Part shown: one piece after another, positions 18,123 to 58,217 of the stretch
How the letters are laid out: each line of letters begins with the position of its first letter
Position numbering within the stretch: the first letter of the stretch is position 1
Source: Kineosporia succinea
Lineage (GTDB): Bacteria > Actinomycetota > Actinomycetes > Actinomycetales > Kineosporiaceae
Assembly (NCBI RefSeq): GCF_030811555.1
Contig: NZ_JAUSQZ010000001.1
Location: 7,933,241 to 7,997,240, forward strand
Direction of reading: 5' to 3'
DNA: 64,000 nt
Notes under the pieces: model-generated
What the model saw: the letters and a program-made list of their open reading frames with translations, nothing else
What the model was told of the DNA's origin: nothing
Database searches by the model: none
Made by a program: the position numbers and the translations under genes

Positions 18123-18491
18123 TCAGGCCGCCCCGTCGTAGCGTTCCCGGGAGACGAGCACACCGGGCATGTGCTCGCGGGCCCAGGTCTCCAGGCCGAG
18201 CAGCAGCGGCTGGAGCGTGCGCCCGGCCTCGGTGAGTTCGTACTGCACCCGCGGCGGCACCTCGGCGAAGGCCTGCCGCACGATCAGCCCGTCACGCTCC
18301 AGGGCCTTCAGCGTCTGCGACAGCATCTTCGGGGAGATGCCCCCGACCTGGTCGGCCAGGTCGCGGTAGCGGGCCGGCCCCTCGGAGAGGACGCCGATGA
18401 TCAGGATCGTCCACTTGTCGCCGATCCGGTCGACCAGCCCCCGGCTGGGACAGTCGGCGGCGTAGGGGTTGAACGGCAGATCCTCGGTCAC
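18123..18491 (-). CDS. HxlR-family transcriptional regulator
   Basis: A 122-residue winged-helix HxlR protein with the family pattern: Cys near the N-terminus (AADCPSRGLVDRIGDKWTILII), GISPKMLSQTLKALERDGLI recognition helix and a VPPRVQYELTEAGRTL wing. C14 may sense oxidants or electrophiles, as in YodB/HypR (inference). It starts with GTG 24 nt downstream of the reductase stop, so the two form an operon, probably controlled by this protein at the operator at 19193-19211. Confidence 0.93.
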   Translation of the reverse strand: MTEDLPFNPYAADCPSRGLVDRIGDKWTILIIGVLSEGPARYRDLADQVGGISPKMLSQTLKALERDGLIVRQAFAEVPPRVQYELTEAGRTLQPLLLGLETWAREHMPGVLVSRERYDGAA

Positions 18492-20047: not shown

Positions 20048-20072
20048 CGTAAGCGATCGATCACCGCATTTC

Positions 20073-20200
20073 TCGGTCGCCGGCGGTGCGATACAGCTCG
20101 CGTTTCAGTTGCCGGCGGCGCGGTGCTGCTCGCGCCTCAGTTGCCGGCGGCGCAGTGCTGCTCGAGCCTCAGTTGCCGGCGGCGCGGTACTGCTCGAGCA
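20073..20200. repeat. Four 32-bp tandem copies of the lsr2 3' end
   Basis: Units start at 20073, 20105, 20137 and 20169. The last is the real end of lsr2 (final codons plus TGA); the next two differ from it or from each other at only 2-3 positions and keep the TGA; the fourth is degenerate. The 32-nt period is not a multiple of three, so this is DNA-level duplication, not protein repetition. Confidence 0.92.
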
Positions 20201-21515: not shown

Positions 21516-22412
21516 CTATTCGCTGCCCAATGCCGCCGCCGTGGCCGCCCCGATCGCCGCCATCTGCGGGTTGTCGGCGGAATGAGCCAGGAAGACCAGG
21601 GCGAACGCGGCCGCCCAGGCCCGGGCCCGGATTTCCAGCGATTTCCCGGAAAGGGGCGCCCGGTGCGCGTACTCCGCCCAGAACCGCGCTCGGGCCGGAG
21701 CCGGGAGCAGCATCCAGGCCACGGCCAGGTCGGTGGCCGGGTCGCCCGCGGTCAGGTCGCCGAAGTCGATGACCGCCCCGATCCCCCGGCCGGTGATCAG
21801 GAGATTGGCCGGATGCAGGTCGCCGTGGAGCCAGACCGGTTCGTGCGCCCAGGGTTCCGCCGCCGTGCCCCGGTCGATCAGTTCCATCAGGAACCCCGCC
21901 GAGGCACCGGCCGACGCCGCGTTGCGCTCGTCGAGCGGACGGCGGGCGGGCAGGTCGACGCCCCGGAACGGGTTGCGGGGAGCCTGCGTGGGAGCGGGCC
22001 GGTGCAGGGCTCCCAGAAAGGCCGCGAGTTCGGTCGCGACACGGTGCGAATCAGCTTCGGTGAATTCGCCGGTGGCGGTGACCGCAGGGCTTCCGGGCAG
22101 CCAGGGCGTGAGACTCCAGGGGTAGGGGTAGCCGGGCGTGGGGACGCCGGTGCGCACCGGCACCGGGATCGGCAGGGGAAGGCGCGGGGCCAGTTCGGGC
22201 AGCCAGGTCTGCTCGGCGTGCACCAGGGCGGCGGCCTGCTCGCGGCGGGGCAGGCGGGCGACGAGGCCGTCACCGATGCGGGCCATCACGTTGTCCCAGC
22301 CGTTCGCGAGCACGGTGATCGGCTCGTGCGCCAGGTCGGGGTGCTGCTCGGCGAGAAGCTGCCGGATGTCGTCGGTGGTGATCTCGACGTCGGCGGCGGG
22401 CATCCGGGCCAT
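21516..22412 (-). CDS. Aminoglycoside phosphotransferase-like kinase
   Basis: A 298-residue APH/choline-kinase fold protein. The catalytic loop is WLHGDLHPANLLI (Asp as base), the metal motif is VIDFGDL, and the N-terminal lobe has NGWDNVMARIGDGLVARLP. Many chromosomal members phosphorylate small metabolites rather than antibiotics, so resistance should not be assumed. The ATG overlaps the stop of the upstream HxlR gene (ATGA), so the pair is co-translated. Confidence 0.88.
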   Translation of the reverse strand: MARMPAADVEITTDDIRQLLAEQHPDLAHEPITVLANGWDNVMARIGDGLVARLPRREQAAALVHAEQTWLPELAPRLPLPIPVPVRTGVPTPGYPYPWSLTPWLPGSPAVTATGEFTEADSHRVATELAAFLGALHRPAPTQAPRNPFRGVDLPARRPLDERNAASAGASAGFLMELIDRGTAAEPWAHEPVWLHGDLHPANLLITGRGIGAVIDFGDLTAGDPATDLAVAWMLLPAPARARFWAEYAHRAPLSGKSLEIRARAWAAAFALVFLAHSADNPQMAAIGAATAAALGSE

Positions 22413-22996
22413 CAGCGTTGCTCCTCGCCGACGTCATGCTTCTCGCTCCGGCCCGCGTGCTGCGCGATGTGGCCAGTGCGCTTCGCGGCCTGGCCGGTGT
22501 GTCTCTCGAGCTGGCCTTCGTGCTTATCGAGCTGACCTTCATGGGTCTTGAGCCGGCCTTCGTGCTTCTCGGCCCGGCCGTCGTGCTTCTCGGCCCGGCC
22601 TTCGTGCTTCTCGAGCTGGCCTTCGTGCTTCTCGGTCTGGTCGGTGCGGTGCTTCTCGATCTCCGGCACGTGCTCGCGCGCCCACCCGGCCAGCGCGAGA
22701 GCCGGTGCGATGAGGCTCTTCCCGGTGGCAGTGAGCGTGTACTCGACACGCGGCGGCACCTCGGCGTGGGCGGTGCGCGAGACCAGGCCGTCGTGCTCCA
22801 GGTTGCGCAGGGTCAGGGTGAGCATCCGCTGCGAGATCCCCGGGATCCGGGCCTGCAGCTCGGAGAAGCGCAGCACGCTCTGGTCGATCGTGGCGACCAC
22901 CAGGAGGGTCCACTTGTTCGCGATGCGGTCGAGCACCGTGCGCAGGGTGCGCCCGCCGTCACCCCGGATCAGGCAGGTGTTCTCGTACTGCGACAT
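22412..22996 (-). CDS. HxlR-family regulator with a His-heptad C-terminal tail
   Basis: A 194-residue protein. Residues 1-112 are a complete HxlR winged helix (TCLIRGDGGRTLRTVLDRIANKW; ISQRMLTLTLRNLEHDGLV; VPPRVEYTLTATG). Residues 113-194 are a tail unknown in ordinary HxlR proteins, made of heptads such as EKHEGQL and EKHEGRA. Histidine recurs every seven residues at 124, 131, 138, 145, 152, 159 and 166, then at 180 and 187, with Arg at 173. The tail is Lys/Glu-rich and should form a helix or coiled coil with one His face. GAGAGG precedes ATG 22996. It is divergent from a DoxX gene across a palindromic operator. Confidence 0.9.
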   Translation of the reverse strand: MSQYENTCLIRGDGGRTLRTVLDRIANKWTLLVVATIDQSVLRFSELQARIPGISQRMLTLTLRNLEHDGLVSRTAHAEVPPRVEYTLTATGKSLIAPALALAGWAREHVPEIEKHRTDQTEKHEGQLEKHEGRAEKHDGRAEKHEGRLKTHEGQLDKHEGQLERHTGQAAKRTGHIAQHAGRSEKHDVGEEQR

Positions 22997-23012
22997 GACC
23001 TCTCCCGGCCTC

Positions 23013-23030
23013 AGGCACACGTGTGTGCCT
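23013..23030. promoter_or_regulatory. Probable HxlR operator between the regulator and doxX
   Basis: AGGCACAC-GT-GTGTGCCT has two perfect 8-bp arms with a 2-nt centre. It lies 17 nt upstream of the regulator ATG and 70 nt before the DoxX start, well placed to control both. Confidence 0.62.
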
Positions 23031-23099
23031 TTTGTAGCGTCCCGACGGCGGACTCATGATGCTGCCACGTCCCGTTCGCCGGTATCACGGAGTCTTTTC

Positions 23100-23465
23100 A
23101 TGACGATTGCCTTCTGGGTGCTCGCCGCCCTGCTCGCCCTCTTCTACCTCTACAGCGGCGGTCTCAAGGTGGTGCGCACCCGCGATCAGCTGCGTCCGAT
23201 GATGGCCTGGGTCGACAGCGTGCCGCTCCCGGCGCTGCGCACGATCGGCGTGCTCGAGGTGCTCGGTGCCCTGGGTCTGGTGCTGCCTCCGCTGACCGGG
23301 ATCGCACCGGTGCTGGCGGTGGCCGCCGCGATCGGGCTGGCACTGATCCAGGTCGGCGGCACCGCCACGCACGTGTCGCGGGGCGAGACGAGCGTGATCG
23401 GGCTGAACCTCGCGCTGCTCGTCGCGGCGGCGGTCACGGCGTGGCTCGCCACCGTCTGGCTGTGA
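23100..23465 (+). CDS. DoxX-like membrane protein
   Basis: A 121-residue inner-membrane protein with four predicted transmembrane helices. It carries the DoxX-like pattern LLALFYLYSGGLKVVRTRDQL, then LPALRTIGVLEVLGALGLVLPPLTG. DoxX-like proteins near HxlR regulators are linked with thiol or quinone stress. ATG 23100 has GGAG about 8 nt upstream. The frame extends far upstream but antisense to the HxlR gene, so that extension is rejected. Confidence 0.87.
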   Translation: MTIAFWVLAALLALFYLYSGGLKVVRTRDQLRPMMAWVDSVPLPALRTIGVLEVLGALGLVLPPLTGIAPVLAVAAAIGLALIQVGGTATHVSRGETSVIGLNLALLVAAAVTAWLATVWL

Positions 23466-23506: not shown

Positions 23507-24628
23507 ATGATGCGCGCTTACACCATTTTTCCGTTCGTGATGGCCGTCGGCGTCGTGCTGGCGCCGTCGGCACAGGCGGCGTCCGGGGGCCTGCCGACGC
23601 AGGCCGCGGTCTCGCCGGGCCCGTCGACCCGGTCCGCTCAGGCCCGACTTGCGGAGGCCAGGATCGCGGACGCGCGGTCCGCTCACGCCCGGCCCACCCA
23701 GGCCCGGCCCGCTCACGCCCGGCCCGCTCACGCCCAGCCCGCTCACGCCCGGCCCACCCAGGCCCGGCCCGCTCAGGCCCGGCCCGCTCACGCCCAGCCC
23801 GCTCACCTCCAGCCCGCTCAGGCCGGCTCGGGATCACCCACGGCAGCCACCTCTTCCAGCGCGCCCGCGGTCGCCGGGGTACAGAGGCAGCGGCTCGTCT
23901 ACTCCTCGGCGCCCGGGCAGGCCAACCGGCTCACAGTCACTATGCGCGCCGGCACCGGCACCGACCTCTACTCCTACACGGTCGACGACGTGTACCCGAT
24001 CCGGGCGACCGCGGGCTGCCGTCACCCGGTGCGCACCGACGCGACCAAGGTGGTGTGCTCGCTCGACGTCGCCGGCAACGCAGACCCGTTCTACGCCGGG
24101 CTGTTCTACCTCGGCGACCGTAACGACACCGTGCGCTTCCACAACCTGAGCGGTCAGGAGTTCTACGCCAGTCAGTTCTGGCTGGGCGACGGTGACGACC
24201 GCGCCGTGACCCGGGCCGATCAGCCCGAGCCGGGGCAGGACGGGCACGACGGCAGCTCGGTCTACGGGCAGAACGGCGACGACCAGATCGAGACCGGTCC
24301 GGGCGGCGACCTGAGCTTCGTGATGGGCGGCAACAACGACGACCTGATCCGGGTCTACGGCGAGGGCATCGCCTCCGGCGGCAACGGGAACGACAAGATC
24401 TACGGGACCTTCGGCATCCACACCTTCAACGGCGACGACGGCAACGACCTGATCGACGCCGGTGACGGTGACGACGTGGTCTACGGCGGACGCGGCAACG
24501 ACCGCCTGTGGGGCCGCCAGGGCAACGACACCATCTACGGCAACAGCGGTGACGACCAGCTGCACGGTGGACTCGGGACCGACAACCTCCACGGCGGCCC
24601 GGGCCGGAACGTGATCGACGAGCGCTGA
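23507..24628 (+). CDS. Secreted RTX (hemolysin-type calcium-binding repeat) protein with a pentapeptide linker
   Basis: A 373-residue exported protein. Residues 1-25 are a signal peptide (IFPFVMAVGVVLAPSAQAA). Residues about 43-105 are a low-complexity linker of repeated five-residue units such as AHARP, TQARP and AHAQP. Residues about 130-190 form a small beta domain with two cysteines (GCRHP, VVCSLD). The last 170 residues hold RTX nonapeptides (GGNGNDKIY, GDGDDVVYG, GGRGNDRLWG, GNSGDDQLHG) that bind calcium and fold outside the cell. No T1SS genes adjoin, so Sec export is assumed. GAGGGG precedes the ATG. Confidence 0.88.
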   Translation: MMRAYTIFPFVMAVGVVLAPSAQAASGGLPTQAAVSPGPSTRSAQARLAEARIADARSAHARPTQARPAHARPAHAQPAHARPTQARPAQARPAHAQPAHLQPAQAGSGSPTAATSSSAPAVAGVQRQRLVYSSAPGQANRLTVTMRAGTGTDLYSYTVDDVYPIRATAGCRHPVRTDATKVVCSLDVAGNADPFYAGLFYLGDRNDTVRFHNLSGQEFYASQFWLGDGDDRAVTRADQPEPGQDGHDGSSVYGQNGDDQIETGPGGDLSFVMGGNNDDLIRVYGEGIASGGNGNDKIYGTFGIHTFNGDDGNDLIDAGDGDDVVYGGRGNDRLWGRQGNDTIYGNSGDDQLHGGLGTDNLHGGPGRNVIDER

Positions 24629-25162: not shown

Positions 25163-25652
25163 GGACCCCATGGCAGACGCGCCGGTCGGCTAAAGGACGG
25201 GCGCCCCGGACGGCACCCCGCCCCGGACCTCATCTCACACCGCCCCGGCACGCGCCCCGCTCCCCGCCCCCGGCGTCCCGCCTCACCCAGCACCCAGCAC
25301 CCGGCGTCTCGCCCCGCCCCGCCCCGCCTGATGGAGTCTGCGGCACCCACGCCTCCGGAGCCGCTCCCCTCATGCATAGCCACGCGAAGTGCACTGGCTG
25401 CGGGTGCGTCGGTGCAGGGCTCCTGCCCGGCCGCAGGGCTCGTACCGCCGGGCTTCGCGGCGCCGGGAACAGCACCACCCCCTATACCCATTCGGTATAG
25501 GGGGTGTGTCTTCCGCCGAGACTCGGCCCGTCGGGGAGCCTCAGCCCATCAAGGCCTTCCACTCGTCAAGGCATCCACCCGTCAAAGCCCTCCACCCGTC
25601 AAAGCCCTCCCACCCGTCAAAGGGCTTTCCCCCGCCAGGGAGTTTCCACCCG
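25163..25652. other. Intergenic region with C-rich sequence, a strong dyad and a tandem array
   Basis: About 490 nt between convergent genes. 25190-25330 is C-rich with short CAGCACC-type repeats. A 13-bp-arm inverted repeat lies at 25476-25506 and a tandem array at 25545-25656, both listed separately. No open frame here reads like a protein. Confidence 0.6.
25476..25506. repeat. Perfect inverted repeat, 13-bp arms, 5-nt loop
   Basis: CACCCCCTATACC-CATTC-GGTATAGGGGGTG. It combines a G/C run and TATA step in each arm. It could be a metal-regulator operator (CsoR sites share the ATACC/GGTAT plus C/G-run style) or a bidirectional terminator between the convergent DUF4240 and GGDEF-EAL genes. 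No U-run follows on either strand. Confidence 0.85.

Positions 25653-56853: not shown

Positions 56854-58217
<1,364 letters not shown>

Follow-up and report, generated by a model that had tools for sequence, protein, structure and literature searches.

Organisation of the locus

The window, by which we mean the whole 64-kb stretch that was analysed, from 7,933,241 to 7,997,240 in the genome of a soil bacterium of the genus Kineosporia, carries a gene for an HxlR-family regulator between a divergent doxX-like gene and a gene for an APH-family phosphotransferase. The features of this region are given below, with coordinates counted from the first base of the window.

21516..22412, minus strand: APH-family phosphotransferase gene (Pfam E 6.9e-38), whose ATG overlaps the stop codon of hxlR by one base (TGATG)
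22412..22996, minus strand: hxlR open reading frame, 194 aa, with the HxlR winged-helix domain at residues 25-112 and Cys8 as its only cysteine
22424..22636, minus strand: likely minisatellite tail of EKHEG-type heptads, encoding residues 121-190 in ten 21-bp units cut by register; the coordinates span all units, last to first, give or take a codon or two
22637..22660, minus strand: ATCGAGAAGCACCGCACCGACCAG (IEKHRTDQ), probably the seed of the array; K. mesophila has the homologous IEKSRTAY here; coordinates approximate to a codon
23014..23029, between hxlR and doxX: palindrome GGCACAC-GT-GTGTGCC, a putative HxlR operator; the conserved block ACAAAAGGCACA reaches 23035
23100..23465, plus strand: doxX-like gene (Pfam DoxX_2, E 9e-24), divergent from hxlR and its probable target

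Membership of the hxlR product in the HxlR family (PF01638) is clear from its winged-helix domain, which is matched over residues 25-112 with an E-value of 1.7e-26 and 92.3 bits against a curated cut-off of 20.8. A second HxlR-family match occurs in the window at 18153-18443, with 45% identity over residues 19-115. The initial annotation had described an ordinary HxlR domain followed by EKHEGxx heptads, and translation of 22412-22996 (minus strand) bears this out, with histidines at 124, 131, 138, 145, 152, 159, 166, 180 and 187 and an arginine at 173. Two additional histidines are H116, which lies within an EKH eight residues before H124 and is out of register, and H176.

The heptad periodicity is not due to chance, as nine histidines never fell in one heptad phase when the tail was shuffled 100,000 times at constant composition. 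Nevertheless, the coding DNA itself repeats every 21 bp and this gives the seven-residue spacing, so that the histidine period is the period of the underlying DNA repeat.

An in-frame array and its probable origin

Tandem Repeats Finder reports a core at 22504-22634 with a 21-bp unit (ACC GAG AAG CAC GAA GGC CAG), 6.2 copies, 0% indels and a score of 164. Cut by register, the array comprises ten units of 21 bp each, open and in frame throughout, of which the last three have diverged. Agreement is 16-20 of 21 bases among units 1-4 and 6, and drops to 8-16 when units 8-10 are compared with any other; the array is therefore a homogenised core with a worn end. As tandem arrays are described as error-prone in assembly (PMC6868369), the array length could in principle be an artefact or specific to the strain, with a true tail that is shorter or longer. 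This is barely credible for an array of only about 210 bp whose units differ by 1-13 of 21 bases, which short reads should be able to order, in a genome assembled as one contig of 8,065,021 bases.

The most informative comparison is with K. mesophila JCM 16902 (contig NZ_JAJOMA010000002.1), which has the same gene order, GGDEF/EAL - doxX - hxlR - APH, and an HxlR protein with 73-74% identity over residues 1-129/130 that ends in ..HVPHIEKSRTAYEDR (..IEKSRTAYEDR) without a tail. At the seed site, hxlR reads ATC GAG AAG CAC CGC ACC (IEKHRT) in the window and ATC GAG AAG AGC CGC ACC (IEKSRT) in K. mesophila. Since GAGAAGCAC is common to the repeat unit and the seed site, the simplest history that we infer from these two species is a single Ser-to-His difference followed by tandem amplification. 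According to this scheme, the last codons of hxlR (IEKHR..) would already have changed from Ser to His in this Kineosporia lineage relative to K. mesophila, and their duplication would then have created a 21-bp unit that multiplied in frame as far as the APH start codon downstream. The change would thus be a gain rather than a loss of the tail, adding about 75-80 residues that probably form a part-helical or disordered appendage of little function.

The tail is likely to be a minisatellite that sits in frame in the 3'-terminal part of hxlR, and this Kineosporia is the only one among those examined to have it. Like other in-frame bacterial minisatellites (intragenic tandem repeats), it has a short unit divisible by three, a homogenised core, a lineage-limited distribution and a position at the end of a gene, with a copy number of about ten here against none in K. 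mesophila or in 81 homologues. By contrast with those systems, it is carried by a cytoplasmic transcription factor, and the comparison of copy number is one of lineages only, between species.

Distribution of the tail among relatives

The homologue set (n=81) comprises the best 80 of 408 relatives from a contig scan, whose peptide patterns included three drawn from the hxlR tail, together with one Nonomuraea record. K. mesophila is among them, and the counts leave out L010 and also L009, which duplicates L082, a K. mesophila gene. The initial annotation had noted that ordinary HxlR proteins end near residue 120, and this holds for the present subfamily, with lengths from the match start of 112-179 aa and a median of 125 (the 112-aa value belongs to a late-starting match). 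The longest homologue, from Hamadaea (L090:3001-3537, 179 aa), carries an unrelated C-terminal extension rich in Ala, Lys and Pro, which indicates that the C-terminus of this HxlR subfamily tolerates additions.

EKHEG-type tails in other HxlR proteins, as sought by the initial annotation, were not encountered: the motif [ED][KR]H[ED]G occurs in none of the 81 homologues (best 80 of 408 relatives plus one), which rules out the histidine stripe as a conserved feature, and no homologue has more than one tail histidine per heptad phase. The tail is therefore absent from K. mesophila and from every other member of the set, the outcome that the initial annotation had said would refute its proposal. 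Among the matches listed from the genomes of 58 relatives, all HxlR matches that extend past residue 130 are interrupted by stop codons except the window's own. In four other genomes of the same genus, the best HxlR match has 45-52% identity and the best DoxX match 40-44% or none; as neither comes near the identity seen with K. mesophila, these genomes probably lack the hxlR-doxX pair.

An EKHEG protein family in the genome itself was also considered and was not found. There is no convincing second protein of this type there (the next match to the tail has an E-value of 0.05), and a mismatch-free array unit occurs nowhere else in the genome. Near copies of the unit outside the array, two sites with one mismatch and others with two, appear at a rate like that of the control (36 + 31 vs 27 + 31). 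Across the phylum sample, one of 395 other genomes gives a match to the tail, over 28 aa only and in an intergenic stretch between two open reading frames. This match (L148:1501-1584), from a different actinobacterium, is to an independent array with a 21-bp period that translates as KSHDGRA, a sequence similar to the tail unit. A literature search returned nothing on HxlR tails and no paper joining Kineosporia with HxlR.

Constraint on the repeat units and predicted structure of the tail

Comparison between units yields a pN/pS of 1.04 when all ten are included and 0.97 when only the first seven are. For the remaining two reading frames the values are 1.09 and 0.68, and 1.66 and 0.66, and the ratio is itself a blunt tool here because one other frame yields a lower value (0.68) than the true one. 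Departures from the unit consensus number 11, 19 and 13 at the three codon positions, with no third-position bias. The reading frame has probably been kept open, given that 143,949 of 163,949 simulated neutral arrays contained a stop codon and were rejected, whereas the real array contains none. The histidine column shows one departure in ten units, as does the glycine column. At most one amino-acid change in the histidine column was seen in 2.2% of the stop-free simulated arrays (P 0.022), and the same outcome in any of the seven columns in 24.7% (P 0.247), in a simulation that ignores the shared descent of the units and for a column picked post hoc. The amino-acid sequence of the units thus shows no clear constraint, and the retention of the histidine column, the one result favouring a metal or pH role, is weak and post hoc.

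In the AlphaFold monomer, blocks of the domain reach a confidence of up to 96 and the last domain helix runs on to residue 139, with a pLDDT of 84 for residues 121-130 and 64 for 131-140. Residues 141-194 score 55-58. Helices are predicted in the tail region of this monomer at 111-139 and, at the lower confidence of 55-58, at 156-177, so that helix may extend through the first heptads at least.

These features invite the alternative that the tail is a functional histidine zipper, with Leu or Ala at position a and His at d, which would join subunits or dimers in a coiled coil dependent on metal or pH and tune DNA binding. The heptad register is compatible with such an arrangement (a column TLAALLLAIS, d column HHHHHHHRHH), as are the net charge of 0 with neutral His, the histidine column kept in 9 of 10 units and the two predicted helices. 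Designed histidine coiled coils bind metal, and the tail resembles them in having His at d. It differs from them in having Gly at f in all but one of the ten heptads, which should weaken a helix, in the low predicted confidence beyond residue 140 and in the lack of conservation. Moreover, a spacing of seven residues on one helix separates histidines by roughly one coiled-coil layer, and such residues do not form a chelate within the same chain. With pN/pS about 1, and with neither the tail nor its histidine register conserved in K. mesophila or the rest of the homologue set, we consider a functional zipper very unlikely. The initial annotation had proposed the histidine stripe as a metal- or pH-responsive device, and this reading is not supported, because the stripe follows automatically from the 21-bp repeat, the tail is absent from the homologues and the units show no constraint in pN/pS; the conserved sensor candidate is Cys8.

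The adjoining APH gene and other arrays in the window

An open frame in an array with no clear constraint on its sequence could also be explained if the tail serves the APH gene, the in-frame array bringing ribosomes to the overlapping start (TGATG) and selection acting on the frame rather than on the sequence. The single base shared by the hxlR stop and the APH start would agree with this, as would an open array in which every unit is exactly 21 bp. Other arrays in the window also bear on the matter, and three of the features concerned are as follows.

20072-20196: 32-bp array of 3.9 copies, covering the final 28 bp of an Lsr2-like open reading frame and continuing into the spacer
23507-24628: predicted secreted RTX-type calcium-binding repeat protein, with an N-terminal five-residue repeat PAHAR/PTQAR in 15-bp units at 23628-23824
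58064-58197: 52-bp array of 2.4 copies, between GAPDH-like and WhiA-like open reading frames

Both arrays that lie within open reading frames, the hxlR tail (period 21) and 23628-23824 (15/60), have periods divisible by three and 0% indels. The six others (20072, 25545, 50221, 52100, 52263 and 58064) fall in spacers or at the ends of genes, as judged from the lists of open reading frames with gene names assigned by eye. Their best periods are 32, 33 (also 17/18), 22, 12, 14 and 52, respectively, with 4-18% indels in the arrays at 25545, 52100 and 58064, and all six thus have either a period not divisible by three or indels. However, K. mesophila has the same hxlR-APH order with neither the overlap nor the tail, which shows that the tail is not needed for the pair, and APH is not adjacent to hxlR in 80 of the 81 loci, K. 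mesophila being the one exception. A tail maintained for the sake of APH is therefore unlikely.

Compared with K. mesophila, two of the spacers that contain arrays are longer: the lsr2-SDR spacer measures 121 bp against about 43 bp (about 80 bp shorter in K. mesophila), and the GAPDH-whiA spacer 290 bp against about 187 bp (about 100 bp shorter). The RTX-type protein has no match within the 80-kb K. mesophila stretch. Merged arrays scoring at least 90 number 8 in the 64-kb window and 5 in that stretch, too few for an enrichment to be claimed.

A conserved regulator pair with a candidate operator and sensor

Set against the tail, the remainder of the locus is widely shared. The divergent doxX gene adjoins hxlR in 78 of the 81 loci, and the spacer between them (22997-23099) is strongly conserved among actinobacterial homologues (TACAAAAGGCACAC..GTGTGC). 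Of the 81 upstream regions between the genes, 73 contain the core ACAAAAGG[AC]ACA and 62 contain GCACA-N4-TGTGC, each against 0 of 81 equal in-gene stretches, for a stretch picked after its conservation had been seen by eye and in related homologues whose counts are not independent. In the 8.07-Mb genome itself, a single site fits the palindrome pattern exactly and three more differ from it at three positions; the reversed pattern, used as a control, has no sites. A literature search found no paper joining DoxX with HxlR and none joining DoxX with DUF24. From its position and conservation, the palindrome looks like a dedicated operator that is new to the literature searched, and the hxlR product probably regulates the divergent doxX gene. 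Of the earlier proposal of a metal- or acid-responsive repressor of doxX, the repressor part thus gains support from this genomic context and the metal- or acid-responsive part does not. The locus shares its arrangement, cysteine and palindrome with other actinobacterial hxlR-doxX pairs; it differs from them in the heptad tail, which the homologues examined lack, and in a distal element, GTTAC-N5,6-GTAAG, which is present in 39 of the 81 homologue loci and absent from this window.

Cys8 is invariant in a 41-row alignment, and a cysteine lies within the first 12 residues of 80 of the 81 homologues; in the remaining one the match begins only at residue 14. The conserved candidate for a sensor residue is thus Cys8 and not histidine. 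By sequence, the nearest solved structure is YybR (E 1.7e-17), which we take to be HypR, and YodB matches too. The CatR target CatD is DoxX-like. In Bacillus subtilis, two reports place the N-terminal cysteine of these regulators at Cys6 in YodB, Cys7 in CatR and Cys14 in HypR, and attribute to it the sensing of electrophiles or hypochlorite (PMC6943732, PMC10458429). With its HxlR domain and Cys8, the hxlR product has the N-terminal cysteine of these MarR/DUF24 redox sensors. Their operators differ from the putative one at the hxlR locus, and they have no tail as far as they are matched, the matched stretches ending by residue 127. Many homologues carry a second cysteine, and as the product here has only one, a disulfide of the C6-C101' type found in YodB is impossible within the family pattern. 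By analogy, a single cysteine would fit alkylation, mixed disulfides or Cys8-Cys8' disulfides. We read the hxlR product as a local thiol-switch repressor of doxX; an activator, as HypR is, seems less likely.

Interpretation and implications

The explanation that we favour, and hold with considerable confidence, is that a thiol-redox repressor of doxX, encoded in a conserved gene pair, has acquired a recently amplified 21-bp-repeat tail that probably does little. The hxlR product would repress as a dimer bound to the palindrome in the hxlR-doxX spacer, and an oxidant or electrophile reacting with Cys8 would release it, as is the case for YodB and CatR. A more ambitious possibility is that a redox repressor with a single cysteine became a dual sensor when the minisatellite arose in one Kineosporia lineage, the repeat helix zipping dimers together with metal or neutral His and opening in acid. 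We regard this as highly improbable; if true, it would mean that slippage of one His-bearing heptad created a regulatory domain in a single step.

More generally, the locus is a caution that a striking residue period in one protein can reflect the period of a young DNA repeat. It also offers a clean case in which an in-frame array at the 3' terminus lengthens a conserved transcription factor, and a syntenic relative without the tail is available for comparison. A further gain, and the more useful one, is the conserved hxlR-doxX pair and its candidate operator, whose single exact site in the genome means that the regulation can readily be tested.
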